From contig JACVVK020000038.1 in assembly GCA_018292915.2 (NCBI GenBank), forward strand, positions 105,001 through 169,000: a DNA stretch of 64,000 nucleotides. Direction: 5' to 3'. The position numbers were made by a program, and so were the translations under genes. Every line of letters begins with the position of its first letter. Position 1 is the first letter of the stretch. Origin of the DNA: Batillaria attramentaria. Lineage: Eukaryota; Mollusca; Gastropoda; Batillariidae. The notes under the pieces are model-generated. The model did no database searches, was not told where the DNA came from, and saw only the letters and a program-made list of their open reading frames with translations. Shown one piece after another: positions 2,516 through 57,122 of the stretch.

Positions 2516-4010
2516 GAAGATAAGAACTTTATTAATCCCCTCAGGAAAATTTATCGTGTACAGCTCTTGATCACATAATACACAGTACAACTATTATGAC
2601 ACAAGAACAAAATCTCCATGAAGAAATCAGCCATGCACCCACACGCGCGTCCACCCATCACTATATATATGCACCCACACACTTAAGTGACTTATCCATA
2701 GTCATAGCATACACTCTTCTCATGCATACTGCCATGCCACACACCACAAAGTGAAATAACCTGCACACATAATACATACTACATAGTGAAGCTATGTATT
2801 ATAATTACATTATTAAAAACAAATCTACAATTCAGGGGATACTACTATAGTTCATCATAGGCACTGATCTACTGGTGTACGCCTATGTAATTTACACCAT
2901 GCATCCACGCACTCTTCACTCATACACCCATCAAATACACTCCTGGCAGAAATACTGTTATGAATTTCATGATTAAGAAGAAAACTGTAATTCAAAATAA
3001 TTCAGTCCATCACAAAAACAAAATCTCCACATAAAATCAACCATGCTTTGCACACTTATCTGCTCATCCACATATCACATGCGCACACACACTCAGCCAT
3101 AGTCGTACACTCCACACCTCCACGCCGTACATCACCTGGTGAAATACATTCGGATTTCCAATGCACTAGTCATCTTGCCTCATAATTTCAAACATAATAT
3201 AAAAAGAACTAAAACTGTTAGAATACTTTGAGAACACAACCACAACAGGGGTTATTTCACTTTAGCAGCATACTGTACAGCAGCAACAGGTAGTGGACGG
3301 CACGCTCTGAAAACAGACTAAGACCTACAGTTATCTGATCAAAGCTAAGTTCTAATCATCAATTAAACGCTTTAGTAGCTTCAGGCAAGAAAGATCTCCT
3401 ATGCCTTTAAGTTTGGCTTGCAGGAGTAATTATTCTCCCACTGAATGTACTTCTCTGGCCCTCGATGAGGCTGAACAGGGGGTGTCAGACACTGGACATG
3501 ACAGAGATGTTTTTTTTCTCAAGTCTCTTATAATAAATTATCACTTCAAGCCTCTTCTGGGGTTTCCCCACCACTGACTCAGCTTTCTTTACAACTTTGT
3601 CCACTCTACCCCTGTCCTGTTTTGAGATCTGACTACCCCAACAGACACAGCCCAAAAAGAGGACACTGCCTACAAAAAGTACAATGGACTGTATGTATAC
3701 ATGTGTGTAAAACATGTTCAGAATTTTCTCACTAGCATCAAAAGAGTGTAATTTCCTCAAGGAGTACAGTCTGGATTGAGATTTCTTTATCACATGATCA
3801 GTGTTAGCATTCCAGTTCAGTCTGCTGTCAATAATCACCCCCAAGTATATAATATATAGGTCAACCCTCTGAAATACCTCCCCCTTAATATCTACAGGAT
3901 CAACATACTTGGCTTTTTTCCCTGAAATCAATGACCATTTCTCTGGTCTTACCAATACTGAGATGTAAAAAATGACACCACTCAACAAAGTTTATTGTAA
4001 AGATGGGCAA
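2516..4010 (-). mobile_element. 5'-truncated LINE, RT C-terminal end (Rex1/L2-like)
   Basis: On the minus strand, 3988-3485 encodes the C-terminal part of a non-LTR reverse transcriptase. It has YLGVIIDSRLNWNANTD followed by KKSQSRLYSLRKLHSF, the typical thumb-region pattern of Rex1/L2/CR1-like elements. A frameshift near 3905 and in-frame stops (after SVMSSV and further on) break it. The reading continues recognisably to about 3360 (SLIEGQRSTFSGRII). The 3' end at 2516-2560 carries GGGATTAATAAAGTTCTTATC, a characteristic LINE 3' terminus with a polyadenylation-like AATAAA. The clade is a guess from memory; the RT identity is firm. Confidence 0.85.
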
Positions 4011-7196: not shown

Positions 7197-7890
7197 CTGC
7201 CGCAGCGGGGATCTGAATAAATGATCGTGTACAAAAAAAATTAATCTACGATTCTAAAATAGCTGACGATCTCGGTGTAAGTGAAAACTTGGGCGAAAAT
7301 GTGCATTTTTTTCCGTTTCTACCGGAGCTACAGACATCGCTCGCTCGCCAATGTGAGGTGGAAAAAATAACGTTTGAAATGAGCCTACAATTTACCCCCC
7401 CCCCCCCCCCCAAGAACTTCAAGCGACGATGGTGTCAAATGTAATCCTGCTCTGCAATTGACGTGTATTCCAAAAACCTTCATGAGAAAATGTGAAAAAG
7501 TGACGTCAGTGAATGATGTCAAAGTGCTATTTTGGACAAGTGTCATTCCCTGAAAAGGACTCGATTTAGGCTGATCTGACTTAAGCCGAGAAGACAGGGA
7601 AAGACAGAAAAGAGTGGCTGTTATAAAATGATTCAGGTCACATCCTCCTGGATAACCTTCTCTCTGCAGAAAGTCTACAAAAAGCGACTCCGTAGAAAGT
7701 TATCGCCGAAATCAGTTGGGGGCTGAATTACCAAACCCACTGTGCAAGCTTTGGCAAAGATGTCGATGAGAATTACACCCACCGTCATTTGTAATATGTC
7801 CAGGGCCCGTATGTAAAACTCGAGGTTCATTTAACTCACTGCTACGGGCCTAACCCAGACTAGGACAAAAGAAACCCAAAACAAAATTAA

Positions 7891-8885
7891 ACTAGAGAGG
7901 CAAAAGCCTCCATGGCTCCCTTGTAACACAGGTCAAGGTCATTCACAAGAGTATGTTTGTAAAGCTCTTATCACTATCCATTATCATGCCGAGTAGTGTC
8001 TCTGGCGTTCTCAGTTCATGGCAATATTACAATTTCCCCCAAAACAGTTTGTATGGCCTTGACCTTTGGTCAAAGTCATTCAAATGAGATCTCATCAATG
8101 TCTATCATTATGCCAAGTTTGATGCCTCCAGTATTTGTAGTTCCTCCGAAAACAGTAATACTAAAATTCACAACAGACAGCTTTAATGACCTTGACTGAA
8201 GAAAGGTAGGTCTCATTGCTGTCTATCATCATACCTCGTTTGGTGCCTCTGCTCTTTGTTGTTTTGGAGAAAATGCCAAGGTTAAAATTTCAACAACAAC
8301 AAAAAACCGCTTGCATGACCTTGACCTTGACTAAAAGTCACTGAACACAGATACGTCTGTAAAGGTGCTGCTAATGTCAATCATCGCACATATAGTTTGA
8401 TGCTTCTGATTCTTCTGGATTCTGAGAAAATGCAAATGTAAATTTTCCCAACAGACTGTTTTAATGACCTTGACCTTGGGTCATTTAAGGTGGTATGTGT
8501 GCATAGGTCTTATCACTGTCTATCAGCACGCCACTTTTGGCGCCTATGCTGTTTGTTGTTTCTGAGAAAATGCCAATGTTAAGGTTTCACAAAAATATCT
8601 TGTACGGCCTTGGCCTTGACCTTGAGACAAGGCCACTGACTACATGTATATCTGTAAAATTTTTATCAACGTCTATCATCATGCAAAGTTTAAAACCTCT
8701 GGTGTTTGTAGATTAGGAGAAAATGCCAATGTAAAATTTTCAAACAGAGGTTTAGTGACCTTGACCTTGAGTCAAGGTCACTCAAAATGATATGTTTTGA
8801 AAGGTCTTGTGGTTGTCTATCAGCATGCCAAGTTTGGTGCCTCTGCTGTTTGTAGATTCTGAGAAAATGACAATGTTAAAGTTTT

Positions 8886-8937
<52 letters not shown>

Positions 8938-8983
8938 GACGGAGGGTTAATACATAGACTCCCATTGTTACACAAGGGAGCCA
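7891..8983 (+). mobile_element. Pearl-like tandem-array element A
   Basis: Starts ACTAGAGAGGCAAAAGCCTC then TGGCTCCCTTGT; ends ACAAGGGAGCCA, the inverse of TGGCTCCCTTGT. Between them are about seven tandem monomers of roughly 130-150 bp, then a 44-bp (AC)n tract, then a unique 3' end containing GACGACGGAGGGTTA. Short terminal inverted repeat, tandem core, microsatellite and terminal tail reproduce the architecture described for Pearl elements of oysters (non-autonomous, possibly Helentron-driven). Each monomer carries TGACCTTGACCTT paired with TCAAGGTCA or variants. Non-coding. Confidence 0.75.
8889..8932. repeat. (CA)n inside Pearl-like element A
   Basis: Occupies the fixed position just before the element's 3' tail, as in copy B. 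Confidence 0.95.
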
Positions 8984-9208
8984 ATAAAAAAACAAGGAGG
9001 AACGGCCCCGTCCTACAAAGTTGTTTCTCCAAATTTCATTTTATTTTTTCTGTTTTGTTGTTATTGTTGCCGGTTCTCCCCTCTCCAAGTTCTACCAATG
9101 ACACTAGATCCTCTACGACCTCGACCGATTAGTCACGTGACTGGGGGTGGGGGCCGGGTGGGGGGAGAGAGAGAGAGAGAGAGACAGACAGAGACAGAGA
9201 GAGAGAGA

Positions 9209-9380
9209 GTGGGTGGGTGGGTGTTTAGGAGTTTAACGTCCTTTTCCACCACGTAAGGGTGATATCTAAGACGGGGCAACGAGAGAAAGGCCAGCACACA
9301 CATTTGGCCCCAGCCGGGATTCGAACTCTCGACCCGAGCATTGAAAGTCCAACGCTCTACCATTCGGCCACCCTGGCTCC

Positions 9381-9382
<2 letters not shown>
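9209..9382 (-). mobile_element. SINE family A inserted in (GA)n
   Basis: Complete copy flanked on both sides by GA/TC repeat, so its target site was a microsatellite. Present at the homologous position in the inverted twin (38955-39128). The insertion therefore predates the duplication. Confidence 0.92.
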
Positions 9383-9418
<36 letters not shown>

Positions 9419-10371
9419 CAGTTCCGTGAACTAAACATTGGACGTCAGCCTCAGGCAGGTCGTCATACACAGACAGAGAGATGACGTCAATTCCGCGAAC
9501 TAAACATTTTCACGTCAGCCTCTAGCACTGCCATCGTCTGAGGAAGCTTGTTTATGTCTTGTGATTTCCCTGTTGGCTTTGTGGCTTCCCCGATTGAATT
9601 ATTTTTCACATGAAATCTGGAAGATCTAGAGGGCTGGTGAAATGTCGGAGGCAGTGACGATACTTGCTTATTTTGTCTGTGAACTAAGCGTTTGACGTCA
9701 GCTTCACACTGGTGGTATGACAGATGATGCTTGTGCATGTCTTGTGATTTCCCTGTTGCTTTTGTGACTTCCCTGGCTGAACTAATTTTTACATAAAATC
9801 TGGAAGATCTAGAGGGCTGGTGAAACATGGACTAGAATACCTTGGATTGTACTTATGAAATCGAAAATTTGGAACTCTTTTGACCGGTGCTTCTCGCAGA
9901 AACTTGAAAAAGTTATGTTTATCTAAAAGTTCAGTTATTCTAAATGCTAAAGATATAATAGTGCAGTAGTTCCTGTCATATGTGCAGTTGTCACACTAGA
10001 CAAAAACGCCGGGATGATAAGTAATTTGCAGTAGTCTTTTCATAGATATTTGATCTTATGTGCAAACCACCCCTACCTCGGAAATATTTTTTTTACAAAA
10101 AAACCAGTCAGAGCTACAGAGCTGTAGCACGAATCAAGGCAGTGTGATTGGGTGAACTTCCAAAGTCTACAAAATGAAGGAATTTGAACAACTTTTTCGA
10201 TAAAGAATCGTAACATGACCGATTTTTTAAAAAATCGGCGATAACTCTTCTGAAAATGCGGCAGGTTAAAAATCGTGAAAGGTAGCTCTGGAGAAGGTGA
10301 TTTCCCATTTTATCTCAAAGTAAAAAGGCCTCCATCGAGGTGGTTTAGGAGATAGCCATCATTACATCCGT

Positions 10372-10373
<2 letters not shown>

Positions 10374-10419
<46 letters not shown>

Positions 10420-10432
10420 ACACACACACACA
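10374..10432. repeat. (CA)n microsatellite
   Basis: The counterpart in the 38-kb twin is a much shorter (TG)n at about 38009-38030, so the tract changed length after duplication. Confidence 0.95.
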
Positions 10433-10608
10433 CGTCATTCCCGCCAAAAAGAACGCAGCAGCATAGTGTGCACGTCAAGTGTCTATGACGCAGGTTTCGT
10501 TACGTCACTGTGTGCGTGAAAGTATGTATTGTGTGGAGAAACGTCACAGTCTTGTTTTGTATCACTGAAACTTGCTGCTGCGCGCAGCAAAATCTGCCCC
10601 GTCTCATA

Positions 10609-10636
10609 AAGTTGTTTCTCTATAGAGAAACAACTT
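10609..10636. repeat. 28-bp perfect palindrome
   Basis: AAGTTGTTTCTCTA followed by its exact inverse. The same palindrome lies at 37786-37813 (plus an overlapping partial second copy) and, with mismatches, at 31461-31488. In all three it sits at the end of the same repeat, next to TATAAAG and a CAGCAGCAAGTTTCAG stretch. Confidence 0.9.
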
Positions 10637-10637
10637 A

Positions 10638-12090
10638 AAACTAGAGGAGCAAAGCCTCCTTGGCTCACTTGTGAGATGGGTCAAGGTCATTCAAAAGAGT
10701 ATGTCTGTAAAGTTCTTATCACTATCTATCCTGAAGTAATGTGTCTCTTGTGTTCACAGTTCCTAAGAAAACGGATAATGGCAATATAACAGTTTTCCCA
10801 GGACAGCTTGTATGACCTTGACCTTGGGTCAAGGTCATTCGAATGAGATCTGTAAGAGCTTATCAATGACTATCATTACGCCAAGTCTGATAGCTCTAGT
10901 TTTCTAGTTTCCTTGCAAATGGTAATGTAAAATTTCACAACAGACAGCTGTAATGACCTTGACCTTCAGTCAAGGTCATTCAAAAGGGTATGTCTGCATA
11001 GGTCTCATTTCTGTCTATCATTGTGCTTTGTTTGGTGCCTCTGCTGTTTGTTGTTTCCAAGAAAATGCTAACATTAAAGTTTCCGCAAAACGTCTTGAAT
11101 GGCCTTGACCTTGACTCAAGGATATTGAATACAAGTATGCCAGTACAGGTTTTGTCAATGTCTATCACCATGCAAAGTTTGATGCCTCTTATACCCCTAG
11201 ATTCTGAGAAAATGGCAATTTTAAATTTCCAATGAGACAGCTTTAATGACCTTGACCTTCAGTCAAGGTCATTCAAAATGGTATGTATTGGGAGGTCTTA
11301 CTGCTGTCTATCAGCAAGCCAGGTTTGGTGTTTCTGCTGTTTATTGTTTCTGAGAAAATGCCAATGTTAAGGGTTTGGAAGCTTTTCTGCAAACAGCTTG
11401 TATGGCCTTGACCTTGACTCAAAGTCACTGAATACAGGTATGTCTGTAAAGGTGCTGTCAATATCTATAATCATGCAAAGTTTGATGTCTCTTGCTTTTC
11501 TGGATTCTGAGAAAATGCCAATGCAAAAGTTCCAAACGGACAGCTTTAGTGACCTTGACCTTGGGTCACGGTCAATCAATATGATATGTTTTAAAAGGTC
11601 TTATGGCTGTCTATCAGCAAACCAAGTTTGGTGCCTCTGCTTTTCATTGTTTCTGAGAAAATGCCAATGTTAAGGTTTTGGAAGGTTTTCCGCAAAACAG
11701 CTTGTTTGGCCTTGACCTTGATCAAAGTCACTGAATACAGGTATGTCAGTAAAGGTGTTGTCAATGTCTATCACCATGCAAAGTTTGATGTCTCTGGCTT
11801 TCCTAGATTCTGAGAAATTGCCAATGTAATATTTCCAAACAGACAGCTTTAGTGGCCTTGACCTTGGGTCAAGGTCAATCAATATGGTATGATTTTAAAG
11901 GTCTTATGGCTGTCTATCAGCGTGCCAAGTTTGGTGCCTCTGCTATTTGTAGATTCTGAGAAAATGCCAATGTTAAGGTTTACTGCGGACACACACACAC
12001 ACAGACAGACAGACAGACACACACACACACACACACACACAGACGACGGAGGGTTATTACATAGACTCACTTTGTTACACAAGTGAGCCA
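10638..12090 (+). mobile_element. Pearl-like tandem-array element B
   Basis: Starts ACTAGAGGAGCAAAGCCTCC then TGGCTCACTTGT; ends ACAAGTGAGCCA (inverted). It contains about nine tandem monomers of roughly 145-155 bp in which two types alternate. One type carries GACCTTGACCTT with GTCAAGGTCATTC. The other carries GGCCTTGACCTT with CTCAAAGTCACTGAATACAG. This gives a dimeric repeat of about 300 bp. The array is followed by an (AC)n/(ACAG)n tract and the GACGACGGAGGGTTA tail shared with element A. Non-coding. Confidence 0.78.
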
Positions 12091-12134
12091 AAAAGGAAGC
12101 GAACTCCCTAACCCTGACTTTTACATGCGGGCCC

Positions 12135-12658
12135 TGATTGAGATTTGACAAGAAACAGCGGGTGTGTTCAGTCATGCGTGCCATGCAAGCAGCTGCAAAG
12201 ATGAAATCGTGAACGGGTTAAACTGCAAGCCAATCAATCGCCCAAACAATATTAACAGGTGGTCGTCAGACCAACACGGGGGGGTGGGGGGAGGGGGGAG
12301 GGGGGTGTAACCTCGCCACGTCAAGCACGAGCAACACAGTTGTAAGCGTTGAGGGGCCGTCCAAATAGTGCGAGGCAGGTACGCCTATCCGAAGGCATGC
12401 GAGGACAGGTTAGGAAGAGCTAACTCATCGAATATCCCCGAAAAAAACAATGTGATTTTGATAGTTGTGTGTGTGCGACTATTAAGGAACAGAGCCAGTT
12501 TTCACACCTTTCGGGATATCGACATTTTCTCGTCGTAAACCTGCGTTACACCGTACATCTTCAAGTCACGTGACACGGTGGACGTTATCCCCCGTGACCA
12601 AGTACCCAGTCGATCGGTGACAACGCAAACATCCCTCCTTTCATCTTACACCCGCTGC
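12135..12658. other. unassigned; G-rich run
   Basis: Contains a G-rich stretch at about 12278-12306 with several GGGG runs. Nothing else supported. Confidence 0.5.
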
Positions 12659-14012: not shown

Positions 14013-14418
14013 TGAGACCATTCTGGTTTGCGTGTATGCTGTTCTACGTCTGTACAAGTGTACCAGACGATGTTATTGGGTTGGTTTGCGTGTATGCTGT
14101 TCTACGTCTGTACAAGTGTACCGCGCACTGAGCAGACGATGTTATTGGGTTGGTTTGCGTGTATGCTGTTCTACGTCTGTACAAGTGTACCGCGCACTGA
14201 GCAGACGATGTTATTGGGTTGGTTTGCGTGTATGCTGTTCTACGTCTGTACAAGTGTACCGCGCACTGAGCAGACGATGTTATTGGGTTGGTTTGCGTGT
14301 ATGCTGTTCTACGTCTGTACAAGTGTACCGCGCACTGAGCAGACGATGTTATTGGGTTGGTTTGCGTGTATGCTGTTCTACGTCTGTACAAGTGTACCAG
14401 ACGATGTTATTGGGTTGG
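14013..14418. repeat. 69-bp minisatellite, about six units
   Basis: Units contain ATGTTATTGGGTTGGTTTGC and GTACAAGTGTACCGCGCACT. The outer units lack the CGCGCACTGAG part. Because 69 is divisible by three, all frames stay open and produce repetitive ORFs on both strands. These are not taken as genes. Confidence 0.95.
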
Positions 14419-20142: not shown

Positions 20143-21115
20143 CGTATCTGAAACAACAAAATGGCGCCACGAGGGTTCACACCAGCCTCCGCCGCATAAC
20201 ACATTTACCTGTAAGAAGCTCGCGGCATACGGAACAGAAAACGGCGGAGCTTGCGAAAATACGGACCTCCAAAACCGACTTCCAAAACGAGAGAGCGCAC
20301 TTACGTTTTATCGCCCTTGGTTGCCGATCCGACGAAGCATGTCCGTACATCGCACAGCACAGAGTTTATATATTTATGTTTTGTTTGTTTGTTTGTTTTC
20401 AAAAACCGGAATTTCCGTCTGGAGAGAAGAGTTTCACGGATGCCACAGTAAACCATACTATGCTGTGGCTCACTGGGGTGGCTAGTAACCACCTTCTGAT
20501 AAACTAATTACCATGCCAACGGCAAAAATGAGCACCTAACAACCGAAGAACCATAAAAGGAAATACGTGGCATAACCTTGTTTAGTTCGTGCCCACACCA
20601 AGACACTACAACCCCACCGTCAGATAACACGGCTTGTTACGTTGCCTTCCCAGTGCTGATGTCCTCAGAATTCAGGAAGAGAGAGTGAACGAGTATTTAG
20701 GGGTGACGAAGTGCAACCAGCAAACACTATTTTACGGTTAGCGAGGGTAGGGGGAGAGAAGAAGACTGACTGGTATCAGAGCGTTCAATTATTTCCCTTT
20801 GTGGCCGTCTAGGTGAATGGCCGTAAATAAGACTGATTCCCGGATGAGCGCCAATACCTGGTGGCACTTTCCTGCTTCGTTGTTGTTTTGTGCTGGTAGA
20901 GGACAATGAACCGGGTATGACTAAAAACAAGACAAGTCGACATAAAGCAGATACTGCAACTTACGGGGTTACGGTGGGCGTGGAGATTCTCTTATTGAAA
21001 TAATGTACTGCAAATACGATTCAGTGCTAGTTGTACGCTCCAGTCGTTCTTATAGCATTAGTGTAAATACCTACCTACACAGCGGTTTTGTCTACTGATT
21101 ACTCTTTGCTTTGTG
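20143..21115. other. unassigned sequence
   Basis: Short (GTTT)n at about 20379-20398. No gene supported. Confidence 0.5.
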
Positions 21116-21700
21116 TCGCCTGCAATGAAACTCGTCCTACTTGTAGTGATACTGAACTATGTGTTATTAACTTGCCTTTGTTCGTTCAGCATGCTCGCTT
21201 TCAGCATAGAGCTTTCACAGGTCAACGTCGCCTGAAATAAAACTCATCCTATTTATAGTGATACTGAACTATGTGTTATTAACTTGCCTTTGTTCGTTCA
21301 GCATGTTCGCTTTCAGCATAGAGCTTTCACAGGTCAACGTCGCCTGAAATAAAACTCATCCTATTTATAGTGATACTGAACTATGTGTTATTAACTTGCC
21401 TTTGTTCGTTCAGCATGTTCGCTTTCAGCATAGAGCTTTCACAGGTCAACGTCGCCTGAAATAAAACTCATCCTATTTGTAGTGATACTGAACTATGTGT
21501 TATTAACTTCCCTTTGTTCGTTCAGCATGTCCGCTTTCAGTATGGAGCTTTCACAGGTCAACGTTCTACTCGTGCACCAAAACCCATTACACAAGCTATT
21601 TAGTGTGACACTGAACTATGTCCTGTCAACTGGCCATAAGTGTCCGTTCACTTTATGTCCGCTTTCAGTAGAGAGCTTTCACATGTCAATGTTTTACTCG
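21116..21700. repeat. 112-bp satellite, about five units
   Basis: Units contain GTGATACTGAACTATGTGTT and TTCACAGGTCAACGTCGCCT. The first three or four are nearly identical at a 112-bp period; the last two are diverged and partial, indicating growth from one side. Confidence 0.93.
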
Positions 21701-32281: not shown

Positions 32282-32629
32282 CTGTACACACATCAACACG
32301 ACACCTTTATTTACTTCATCATCAACATCAACATCATCGTCGTCATCATCATCAAACCATCATCGTCTAACAATTTACATTATCATAAACCTTCCAACAT
32401 ATATCCTTTGTTTCCCTGTATTCAACAGGTGATGAAAAGAACACAGTCCATTTTTTTGTCTCTTTTTTTCTCTCTCTCTTTAAAAAAAAAAAAAATAGAT
32501 CACTGTTGATAACAATATGTAATATGCAATATGTTGAGTTTGAACTAGTGCACCAAGGAATTTTTTTACCATTCCCCAGCGAATGCTAGTGTGTTCTGAA
32601 GCATAAAGTTTTTTAACTTTAACTAGTGC

Positions 32630-32841
32630 GACCTTGACCTTTCATCAAGGTCGTTCAAAGCGATCTGATTCGAAAGGACTTGTCACCAACTACCATAGTG
32701 CTACGCTTGGTGTTTCTACTTTTTACAGTTGCCCAGAAAAAAGCCAATATGAAAGTTTACAAGAGACAGACGGACAGACGACAGACAGAAAGACGACAGA
32801 GGGTTATTACATAGACTCACTTTGTTAGACACGTGAGTCCA
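32630..32841 (+). mobile_element. 5'-truncated Pearl-like element
   Basis: One diverged monomer (GACCTTGACCTTTCATCAAGGTCG) is followed by a CAGACGG/ACAGACAG microsatellite and the family 3' tail (GACGACAGAGGGTTATTACA to GACACGTGAGTCCA). Confidence 0.75.
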
Positions 32842-33739: not shown

Positions 33740-33905
33740 GTGGGTAGGTGTTTGTGGGTTTAACGTCCTTTTCCACCACATACGGGTGACGGGGCAACGA
33801 TGAAAGGGCCAGCACAAATATTTGGCCCCAGCCGGCATACGAACTCACGACCCGAGCATTAGAAGTCCAACGCTCTACCATTCGGCCACCCCGGCTCCCC
33901 CCCCC
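33740..33905 (-). mobile_element. SINE family A
   Basis: Complete copy; likely target duplication TAATTTCACGGG (33728-33739) and TAATTTAACGGG (33912-33923) with one mismatch. Confidence 0.9.
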
Positions 33906-37785: not shown

Positions 37786-38913
37786 AAGTTGTTTCTCTAT
37801 AGAGAAACAACTTTTCTCTATAGAGAAACAACTTTATGAGACGGGGCAGATTTTGCTACGCGCAGCAGCAAGTTTCAGTGATACAAAACAAGACTGTGAC
37901 GTTTCTCCAAACAATACTTACTTTCACGCACACAGTGACGTAACGAAATCTGCGTCATAGACACCTTACGTGCACACTTTGCTGCTGCGTTCTTTTTGGC
38001 GGGAATGACGTGTGTGTGTGTGTGTGTGTGGACGGATGTAATGATGGCTATCTCCTAAACCACCTCGATGGAGGTCTTTTTACTTTGAGATAAAATGGGA
38101 AATCACCTTCTCCAGAGCTACCTTTCACGATTTTTAGCCTGCCGCATTTTCAGAAGAGTTATCGCCAATTTTAAAAAATCGGTCATGTTACGAATTTTTT
38201 TCGAAAACGTTGTTCAAATTCCTTCATTTTCTAGACTTTAGAAGTTCACCCAATCACACTGCCTTGATTCGTGCTACAGCTCTGTAGCTCTGACTGGTTT
38301 TGTGTAAAAAAAAATATTTCCGAGGTAGGGGTGGTTTGCACATAAGATCAAATATCTATGAAAAGACTACTGCAAATTACTTATCATCCCGGCGTTTTTG
38401 TCTAGTGTGACAACTGCACATATGACAGGAACTACTGCACTATTATATCTTTAGCATTTAGAATAACTGAACTTTTAGATAAACATAACTTTTTCAAGTT
38501 TCTGCGAGAAGCACCGGTCAAAAGAGTTCCAAATTTTCGATTTCATAAGTACAATCCAAGGTATTCTAGTCCATGTTTCACCAGCCCTCTAGATCTTCCA
38601 GATTTTATGTAAAAATTAGTTCAGCCAGGGAAGTCACAAAAGCAACAGGGAAATCACAAGACATGCACAAGCATCATCTGTCATACCACCAGTGTGAAGC
38701 TGACGTCAAACGCTTAGTTCACAGACATAATAAGCAAGTATCGTCACTGCCTCCGACATTTCACCAGCCCTCTAGATCTTCCAGATTTCATGTGAAAAAT
38801 AATTCAATCGGGGAAGCCACAAAGCCAACAGGGAAATCACAAGACATAAACAAGCTTCCTCAGACGATGGCAGTGCTAGAGGCTGACGTGAAAATGTTTA
38901 GTTCGCGGAATTG

Positions 38914-51678: not shown

Positions 51679-51756
<78 letters not shown>

Positions 51757-51843
51757 GAGCGCGCGCTCACATACACACGCATACGCAAGCATATTCACAC
51801 GCGCGCCCACACACACACGTACACGTGCATACACGCCCGAACG

Positions 51844-51911
<68 letters not shown>

Positions 51912-51997
51912 AGCGCGCGCTCACATACACACGCATACGCAAGCATATTCACACGCGCGCCCACACACACACGTACACGTGCATACACGCCCGAACG

Positions 51998-52061
<64 letters not shown>

Positions 52062-52147
52062 AGCGCGCGCTCACATACACACGCATACGCAAGCATATTC
52101 ACAGGCGCGCCCACACACACACGTACACGTGCATACACGCCCGAACG

Positions 52148-52221
<74 letters not shown>
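51679..52221. repeat. higher-order CA array, three ~150-bp units
   Basis: Each unit is (AC)n plus a conserved spacer: GGAGCGCGCGCTCACATACA, CGCATACGCAAGCATATTCA, CGTACACGTGCATACACGCC, CGAACGCTC. Spacer starts at 51756, 51910 and 52060. Spacers are identical but for one base (CACGCGCG versus CAGGCGCG). Confidence 0.96.
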
Positions 52222-54670: not shown

Positions 54671-55232
54671 AACGCCCCAATAAACAAGCATCAAAGACCA
54701 AGCCATTACTCGCAGCAAGGTTCCGAATGAATACCTTCAGACGAATGGGTCAGCTCGGTGTAAACGTTAATTGATCTCCGAAACACTAAGTTACAAACAA
54801 AAACAAAAAAAAACTCCCTGCGTTTGCGCGAATGGTACTTCATGCACAGGAAAGCCAGAGTGTTAGCGCATGAACGTTGGGTTTGGGCAGCACGCAGTTA
54901 AGCACAAAACTGTATACTTTGATTTAAAAAATGTTTCGTCTCAGAGTAGTTACTGTAAAACAAGAGAGACCTCAATGTGCTTCTGTGTGGTGTTGTATAT
55001 GTTACAGTGAATTTGTGTAATCAGGGATTTCATGAAATCCCTGAAATTTTCAGTAAGTTCATGTAATTACTGTTTCACTCGGGGATTTCATGAAATCCCT
55101 AAAATTTCCAGGGATTTCATGAAATCCCTAAGTTTTTGTCATGGTTTTTACACTATCTTACTGGCTGAGTTTAGTGAATTTGTGTAAGATCAGACAACCG
55201 GTGCCTAGACCCTGAAATTTCACTCGTACCGG

Positions 55233-56155: not shown

Positions 56156-57122
56156 CCAAGTAAATTTGCTTCACGAAAGGGGGGGAGGGGAAGGGGTGTG
56201 TGTGTGGGGGGGGGGGGGGGTAGGGCAGAGGCTCGAAAATTCTAACAACAGGGGAGCGGGGATTTTCATTATTCCATTTCAGTCAATAAATACCTTTCAC
56301 CTGAGGAGATCTATTACGTCATTTCCAGTATTTGAGGTACACATAAAATTATTCTGACAACATTTTCAGCACCAAGAATACGAGGGGACGAACAGATACT
56401 CTCGCCCCACCCACCCCTCCCCAAGTCCTACGCTAGTGCATGGTTTTCGAAGATGGATTTTACTGTGACATCTTACATGTATGAGTTGCGCGAAATGTAC
56501 TCGCTTGTTTTATCATTAAAAAAAAAAAAAAAACTATGGTCATCGTACACGTATGAGTTGTGCGAAATGAACTTGCACATTTTTTCTTCTTTTACTGTAA
56601 CTATCTTACATATTGGTTGCGCGAAATGTACTTACATTTTTTATTTATTTTGTATCTTCTACTGTGAGAACTTGTATGTTTTGTTTTATACTATGGCTGT
56701 CTTAGATGTAGAGTTCCGTCAGATACACTTGCATGTATTTATTATTTTCACTGATTATCTCAAATGTTTGAGTTGTTTGAGATGTACCTCTATGTGTTTA
56801 CTTTCTTTACCATGTCTGTCCTTAAAAAAACCTACAAAAGATGAGTTGAACGGGATGCACTCCTGTGTTCGGCTTAAGAAAATTATGGGTCAGTGATTTC
56901 CTGAAATCCCTGGCCCTTGAATTCAGGGATTTCATGAAATCCCTGGAAATTTTAGGGATTTCATGAAATCCCCGAGTGAAACAGTAATTACATGAACTTA
57001 CTGAAAATTTTAGGGATTTCATGAAATCCCTGATTACACAAATTCACTGTAACATATAGACTGGAACAAACACAGACAGACAGACAGACAGAGACACAGA
57101 GATCAGGGCCGAATCAGTTTCG

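Follow-up and report, generated by a model that had tools for sequence, protein, structure and literature searches.

Why should a mobile element carry array upon array of what look like nuclear-receptor half-sites? The question is raised by a stretch of 64,000 nucleotides from the gastropod Batillaria attramentaria (contig JACVVK020000038.1, positions 105,001–169,000; hereafter the window), in which the span 7891–12090 comprises two elements of one kind (7890–8982 and 10639–12089), with ~1.65 kb of other sequence between them. Each is built of end modules and a CA-rich microsatellite, with a tandem array whose monomers measure 130–158 bases. A short box in these monomers, which reads as a receptor half-site repeated without a spacer (a direct repeat with zero spacing; DR0), stands out from the rest of the monomer by its conservation, and it does so chiefly in variants that are shared between loci. 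The explanation that we favor, at roughly even chances, is that these are non-autonomous Helentrons (HINEs), Pearl-like in kind, whose arrays keep a DR0 for a host receptor that would aid the spread of the element.

Array-bearing elements with Helentron-type ends

Element 1 holds six full monomers and one half, element 2 eight full monomers and one half, and a third, truncated element one. The original prediction had spoken of sixteen or so monomers in two elements and of a truncated element at 32.6 kb; both statements were borne out, with 14 full and two half monomers in the former and a single monomer in the latter. The parts of the three elements are as follows.

7890–8982, minus strand: element 1, non-autonomous Helentron-like, C/G end class, six full monomers and one half; monomer order E-G-H-F-D-B in the plus direction
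7890–7924, minus strand: 3′ subterminal repeat of element 1, palindrome GAGGCTTTTGCCTC, terminal CTAGTT
7929–8886: array of element 1, nine exact TCAAGGTCA
8889–8934: (CA)n microsatellite of element 1, between array and 5′ module
8957–8982, minus strand: 5′ subterminal repeat of element 1 with inverted partner, GGCTCCCTTGT..ACAATGGGAG
10639–12089, minus strand: element 2, non-autonomous Helentron-like, A/T end class, eight full monomers and one half; monomer order J-K-I-L-C-A-C-A in the plus direction
10639–10672, minus strand: 3′ subterminal repeat of element 2, palindrome GGAGGCTTTGCTCC, terminal CTAGTT
10677–11984: array of element 2, twelve exact TCAAGGTCA
11989–12041: (AC)n microsatellite of element 2, between array and 5′ module
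12064–12089, minus strand: 5′ subterminal repeat of element 2 with inverted partner, GGCTCACTTGT..ACAAAGTGAG
32590–32841 (approximate limits), minus strand: element 3, truncated copy with one diverged monomer and the 5′ (minus-strand) module; neither TGACCTTGACCTT nor TCAAGGTCA in exact form

These parts correspond to those listed for oyster HINEs in sections of PMC7492417 (see also PMC4067079). An inverted partner sits beside the 5′ subterminal repeat (folding z −2.86 and −2.52 in window elements 1 and 2, respectively); a (CA)n microsatellite separates the 5′ module from the array in both window elements, where this feature was tallied; and a short palindrome by the 3′ terminus is recognizable from its letters (GAGGCTTTTGCCTC and GGAGGCTTTGCTCC), its folding energy being not unusual (z −1.14 and −0.47).

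The ends themselves co-vary. In the DNA sampled, 41 5′ ends fit the pattern when the paired base was left free, 27 of them belonging to the C/G class, 14 to the A/T class and none to a mixed one. The third, 3′ arm matched in each of the 25 copies in which both ends were recognized (21 CGG, 4 ATT), and subterminal inverted repeats are thus present at both ends of these 25 copies; the other 16 of the 41 showed no 3′ pattern and may include both cut stretches and diverged ends. Among 40 listed 5′ ends, those of loci L057, L061, L065 and of element 3 differ in some base, and that of L052 is cut. TTTTT lies directly outside 30 of the 41 5′ ends, with four of the remaining 11 cut by the end of the stretch, a tally made at occupied sites. 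The three-way co-variation of the end bases provides good evidence for ends that serve as functional HINE parts.

Receptor-type boxes in the window arrays

Motifs in the window were scored by the consensus sequences of NR5A (YCAAGGYCA) and ERR. When one mismatch was allowed, TGACCTTGACCTT occurred 15 times, against a mean of 0.26 and a largest value of 3 in 100 shuffles, and exact TCAAGGTCA occurred 21 times (shuffle mean 0.90, largest 4). All 21 lie inside the two arrays (nine and twelve), with none in the other 61,574 bases scanned. Because the shuffles fail to reproduce these counts, the sites are real, as the original prediction had it. Its further statement that TGACCTTGACCTT faces TCAAGGTCA in nearly every monomer was too strong, for only a minority of monomers show the exact pair: among the 14 full boxes, 13 read TG[A/G]CCTTGACCTT, seven are exact TGACCTTGACCTT, five have an exact facing TCAAGGTCA and four have both; in the larger sample described below, 95 of 265 monomers do. 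The boxes of the full monomers are listed here.

8054–8066, minus strand: DR0-type box, monomer 1 of element 1 (TGGCCTTGACCTT on the plus strand)
8187–8199, minus strand: box whose second half is damaged, monomer 2 of element 1
8316–8328, minus strand: DR0 box, monomer 3 of element 1
8465–8477, minus strand: DR0 box, monomer 4 of element 1
8611–8623, minus strand: DR0-type box, monomer 5 of element 1
8756–8780: DR0 box and exact facing TCAAGGTCA, monomer 6 of element 1
10813–10837: DR0 box and exact facing TCAAGGTCA, monomer 1 of element 2
10954–10978: DR0 box and exact facing TCAAGGTCA, monomer 2 of element 2
11100–11112, minus strand: DR0-type box, monomer 3 of element 2
11247–11271: DR0 box and exact facing TCAAGGTCA, monomer 4 of element 2
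11403–11415, minus strand: DR0-type box, facing site altered, monomer 5 of element 2
11550–11562, minus strand: DR0 box, facing site TCACGGTCA, monomer 6 of element 2
11707–11719, minus strand: DR0-type box, facing site altered, monomer 7 of element 2
11853–11877: DR0-type box and exact facing TCAAGGTCA, monomer 8 of element 2

Conservation of the box within the monomer

To compare the box with the rest of the monomer, we drew on the window, three stretches from the genome count of TGACCTTGACCTT, systematically placed stretches (two with elements), 20 stretches of contig 1 chosen by exact boxes and 20 chosen by the 5′ module. A profile, itself built from box-bearing monomers, gave 400 matches, from which 283 near-full monomers in 41 loci were obtained. 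Since local alignments trim mismatches at their ends, the monomers were re-cut with the box in the middle and aligned globally; 265 of 274 intervals from 40 loci were kept, nine being dropped for a length outside 110–190 bases, and loci L002 and L005–L008 were left out because they overlap with others. This replaced a first variant-rate analysis of locally aligned monomers, which had given a stronger effect (box/rest 0.25) and in which the box lay near the alignment end, where mismatches are trimmed. A subset of 20 loci (the window, L023, L028 and those of L049–L068 that gave usable monomers) was chosen mostly regardless of the box; the window, which is among them, was itself first noticed through its motif.

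In the 14 full monomers of the window, the box ranked first of 135 windows (0.951 versus 0.785) and the facing site 49th of 139; when the two halves and element 3 were added and gaps counted as changes, the ranks were 11 and 17. Across all 265 monomers, the 13-column box again ranked first, of 134 (0.949 versus 0.794; next window AAAATGCCAATGT, 0.898), with the facing site in eighth place of 138 nine-column windows (0.909). Put to the refuting condition of the original prediction, that half-sites would be no better conserved than bases next to them, the box proved more conserved than its surroundings, and the facing site less constrained than the box. Of the 265 monomers, 214 contain TG[A/G]CCTTGACCTT and 134 the exact facing site.

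The same picture emerged between monomers of one locus (459 pairs from 136 monomers in the 20 loci, window elements pooled): identity reached 0.934 in the box, or 0.976 without the A/G position, compared with 0.844 in the facing site and 0.663 elsewhere. In these 136 monomers, the box hardly changes at positions 1–2 and 4–13, admits only A or G at position 3, and is followed by variable positions 14–16; an AP-1 site in the spacer was considered and rejected, as the AP-1-like TGAGTCA is not kept. The CCTTGACCTT core is unchanged in all 14 subfamily consensuses (at least three monomers each), and the facing site is altered in six. Because monomers of the same locus are only 0.663 alike outside the box and distinct monomers keep a fixed order (see below), recent homogenization fails to explain the common box.

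Read in the element sense, the conserved unit is a DR0, AAGGTCAAGGYCA, in which an AGGTCA-type half-site is directly repeated at zero spacing. Conservation covers both half-sites, more than a single monomer site for NR5A or ERR would call for. The extended NR5A/ERR half-sites of the original prediction are real, dense and dispersed; with a DR0 as the conserved unit, NR5A and ERR are not the sole candidates.

Spread of the elements as whole units

Exact counts on both strands of the 715-Mb assembly (863 contigs), with the reversed patterns as controls, revealed a wide dispersal, and numbers lay far above the controls: 16,948 versus 171 for TGACCTTGACCTT, 67,073 versus 9,457 for TCAAGGTCA (~86% in excess of control), 1,270 versus 0 for a 20-mer of the 5′ module, and 9,892 versus 0 for the full composite with its 3-base spacer, TGACCTTGACCTTNNNTCAAGGTCA. 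The excess of TCAAGGTCA need not all belong to the present family. In 20 systematic 10-kb stretches, 24 of 25 TCAAGGTCA fell within the two stretches holding an element. Near 611,250–611,298 of contig C1, three TCAAGGTCA at 20-base spacing form a tight cluster, apparently in another repeat with the same half-site.

Distinct monomers follow one another in recurrent order: of 43 array pieces, 21 read EGHFDB, six JKILCACA and four IMCACANA. The elements have spread as whole units, with their arrays copied along.

Timing of the constraint

Variants private to one locus are mostly younger than the insertion, and those that recur in several loci date back to the spreading lineage. Within the subset of 20 loci, the box carried shared variants at 0.0113 versus 0.0738 per site (ratio 0.15; bootstrap 0.10–0.22) and private variants at 0.0101 versus 0.0124 (ratio 0.82; 0.51–1.13), giving shared/private odds of 0.19. 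In all 40 loci, the shared ratio was 0.26 (0.20–0.34) and the private ratio 0.60 (0.36–0.82; odds 0.44, p = 0.0028); half of these loci were picked by the exact box, and the private rate is lower as a result. For the facing site, we obtained ratios of 0.42 (shared) and 0.76 (private) in the 20 loci.

As p-values based on alignment cells overstate independence, distinct events were counted as well, with weaker results. In the 20 loci, the box had four shared and 19 private events and the rest 201 and 232 (odds 0.24, p = 0.0085); finer clusters gave odds of 0.26 (p = 0.034). In all four versions of the event count, the box had the fewest shared events of 128 windows, and its ranks for private events were 4, 15, 8 and 25. 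Constraint thus seems to have worked chiefly on the elements while they were spreading, and constraint on private variants is weaker, perhaps absent. Because it is strong on shared and weaker on private variants, a use at the level of the element is favored over widespread use as host enhancers. The same comparison can be applied to other repeat families, where it may help to separate element-level from host-level selection.

A host receptor as the proposed helper of the element

How might a receptor site serve a Helentron? In the explanation that we favor, whole units spread, array included, with a nuclear-receptor-type DR0, AAGGTCAAGGYCA, in nearly every array monomer. During the spread of the family, changes in the box would have been weeded out, with the rest of the monomer drifting to ~66% identity. 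A host protein of the nuclear receptor class would bind along the array in the germ line and, once bound, could help the copying or insertion of the element, for example via altered chromatin or transcription there. After insertion, the box appears to decay at a near-background rate. Candidate proteins are NR5A- or NR6A-type receptors, and ERR or the thyroid hormone receptor (TR) may also be considered.

Judged by its letters, AAGGTCAAGGYCA would suit NR6A at least as well as NR5A or ERR. According to parts of PMC10909835, NR6A1 binds DR0 better as a homodimer than as a monomer and acts in vertebrate germ cells. Recombinant TR of oyster shifts DR0 as well as DR1–DR5 probes in vitro, in the order DR3 > DR2 > DR5 > DR0 > DR4 > DR1 (sections of PMC4692385), and schistosome TR binds DR0 among other repeats (sections of PMC2045677). 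The snail genome itself gave 98 matches to the zf-C4 family. A receptor gene is represented by an exon in L076 that encodes an NR5A-type DNA-binding domain, with 80.6 bits to NR5A2 versus 57.4 to the next family. A second exon, in L070, scores nearly alike with NR5A2 (64.5 bits) and NR6A1 (60.5 bits), and presumably resembles insect HR4. With the human NR6A1 DNA-binding domain as query, 49 matches were obtained, of which the best-scoring is 55% identical and none extends past residue 83 of 103 into the C-terminal extension.

Several points weigh against a receptor acting as helper. An NR6A orthologue was not clearly identified in the genome searches with the human NR6A1 domain, and NR6A1 is described solely as a repressor in parts of PMC10909835, a poor fit for such a role. 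Nor is the box the only conserved part of the monomer: a second block, AATGCCAATGTTA, with a CCAAT core (columns 51–63 of the rotated monomer), occurs in many monomers of both window arrays and has almost as few shared variants as the box in the 20 loci, and fewer still when cells are counted over all loci (0.0145 versus 0.0187). The private ratio of 0.60 in all 40 loci leaves room for constraint or low mutability after insertion, and on all 265 monomers the event test gave p-values of 0.096 and 0.081 only. Finally, oyster elements with related ends may hold unrelated repeats, as sections of PMC7492417 report, and arrays of the same kind are accordingly not needed for movement.

One might go further and suppose, tentatively, that a rolling-circle element has made a germ-line receptor its helper: DR0 arrays (six and eight boxes in the window) would recruit the receptor and favor copying, and the family, which would now hold most of the genome's sites of this class, would both depend on and titrate the host receptor network. 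As a whole, this is a speculative possibility and on balance rather unlikely. If receptor binding is true, there would be a reason why satellite-like arrays persist in Helentrons, the repeats giving the receptor places to dock to the benefit of the element. Most of a genome's sites for one receptor class would then belong to a mobile element, which matters for chromatin immunoprecipitation, motif and enhancer studies in such species.

Alternative explanations

According to the main rival, the box serves the machinery of the element itself or the upkeep of its array, either as a Helentron Rep/helicase site or as a slippage-promoting palindrome or recombination motif. We consider this unlikely, though deserving of serious attention, since it too predicts constraint on the spreading lineage, as seen. 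DNA hairpins with z < −3 are formed by 10 of the 14 boxes folded (the 13 full ones other than that at 8187, and that of element 3), both window arrays start in mid-palindrome, and two variants alter both arms together (consensus CGGCC..GGCCA; element 3 CGACC..GGTCG). Conserved satellite motifs have, moreover, been proposed as promoters of rearrangement, going by a title among the references of PMC7492417. However, the remaining four of the 14 boxes fold poorly, three of them in A-type monomers: the palindrome is damaged in three of the five A-type monomers of the window (z −0.72, −0.30 and +0.91), while the other two fold (z −5.14 and −3.16). Fewer than nine of nine outer pairs are retained in five of the 14 subfamily consensuses, compared with a DR0 core in all 14; the two arms of the palindrome are unequally constrained; and the edges of the box and its purine-only position 3 fit a receptor DR0. 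Because four of the 14 boxes fold poorly, constraint on the sequence itself is more likely than constraint on a hairpin, and a perfect palindrome, which several subfamilies have lost, was rejected as the main reading.

That host selection has kept the box, with the many inserted copies acting as enhancers or decoys for NR5A/ERR-type receptors, appears improbable. The genome-wide number of TCAAGGTCA means that receptors must meet copies if chromatin is open, and private variants are rarer in the box than elsewhere in both samples of loci. Yet for the 20 loci the interval of the private ratio spans 1, and that the 40 loci gave a lower value is partly due to half of them having been picked by the exact box.

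More improbable still is a box without function, inherited as a word that mutates slowly or is homogenized by gene conversion. Tandem arrays are prone to conversion, and further windows of the monomer are also conserved. Against this stand the divergence of same-locus monomers outside the box and the fixed order across copies, which speak against wholesale homogenization, and the rates of box variants, private ones occurring at 0.60–0.82 of background and shared ones at 0.15–0.26; because private variants do arise in the box, low mutability alone is insufficient.

A very improbable reading is that the true ligand is another transcription factor, whose recognition sequence overlaps the DR0, and that with a second factor at the CCAAT block it would make each monomer a small promoter or enhancer for the element. 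Shared variants are scarcest in two blocks, AATGCCAATGTTA and the box, but the degeneracy and edges of the box fit a receptor DR0.

Other repeats and features of the window

Between the two elements, positions 8983–10638 consist of other repeat-like DNA with a palindrome, AAGTTGTTTCTCTATAGAGAAACAACTT, near the right end and a (CA)n tract at 10373–10433; by eye, it resembles a second HINE-type family. An inverted repeat of 27 bases, 85% complementary (7801–7827 and 12110–12136; CAGGGCCCG.../...CGGGCCCTG), encloses both elements at a distance of 4.3 kb and possibly marks the ends of an enclosing transposon, with no obvious target duplication by eye. A protein search from a single frame of the window and scans of Pfam and Rfam added nothing on the elements described above.

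Further features of the window are these.

443–832, 14064–14398, 21115–21564 and 51692–52213: local satellites with uniform units of 44, 69, 112 and ~154 bases, respectively (96–100% matches)
3485–3985, minus strand: frame matching Pfam ALKBH8_N (5.9e-9); by eye like the end of the reverse transcriptase of a long interspersed element (LINE)
~9235–9380 and 33745–33900: a pair of similar stretches, each with a tRNA-like box (GGGATTCGAAC-type) at its end, which by eye suggests a tRNA-derived short interspersed element (SINE)
37792–37835: 21-base unit TTTCTCTATAGAGAAACAACT, doubled
55021–55136 and 56890–57032: two arrays, ~1.8 kb apart, of a 29-base unit with palindrome TCAGGGATTTCATGAAATCCCTGAAATTT

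Comparison with known systems

Array-bearing HINEs are already known, as are mobile elements that spread protein-binding sites (ISX). In the open-licence papers searched, figures aside, we found no array-bearing HINE whose repeats keep a receptor DR0; the exact composite motif had no copy in viral and genome collections, and the 5′ module no match in the viral collection, the one searched for it.

The term Pearl-like, used in the original prediction, was right in kind: the architecture is that of the HINEs, to which Pearl has now been re-assigned according to sections of PMC7492417. Our elements share with oyster Cg_HINE and bivalve Pearl, as described in those sections, the 5′ subterminal repeat, its inverted partner, the microsatellite, the 3′ subterminal repeat and the 3′ palindrome, as well as a short array of repeats, mostly of 140–180 bp and always in one orientation, and, probably, T-rich insertion sites. 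This is a likeness of architecture, drawn from descriptions of Pearl and Cg_HINE and not from their sequences. What differs is the receptor-type box: the main text of PMC7492417 has no match to "transcription factor" or "binding site", and "receptor" occurs in a reference title only. It does report two relatively conserved segments common to some oyster monomer clusters.

With the DR0 elements of NR6A (GCNF) and of invertebrate TR, the box has in common AGGTCAAGGTCA without spacing. It differs in tolerating C at one place of the second half-site (AGGYCA), and as a receptor-binding site it is putative.

ISX of Drosophila miranda, which derives from a Helitron, is a further parallel. Like the present elements, it is a mobile element that disperses protein-binding sites, and sections of PMC4384637 report both binding and selection there, whereas the boxes described here are putative sites known from their sequence. 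Unlike ISX, the present elements carry an array of sites in each copy, and the constraint on them shows in the element as it spreads.

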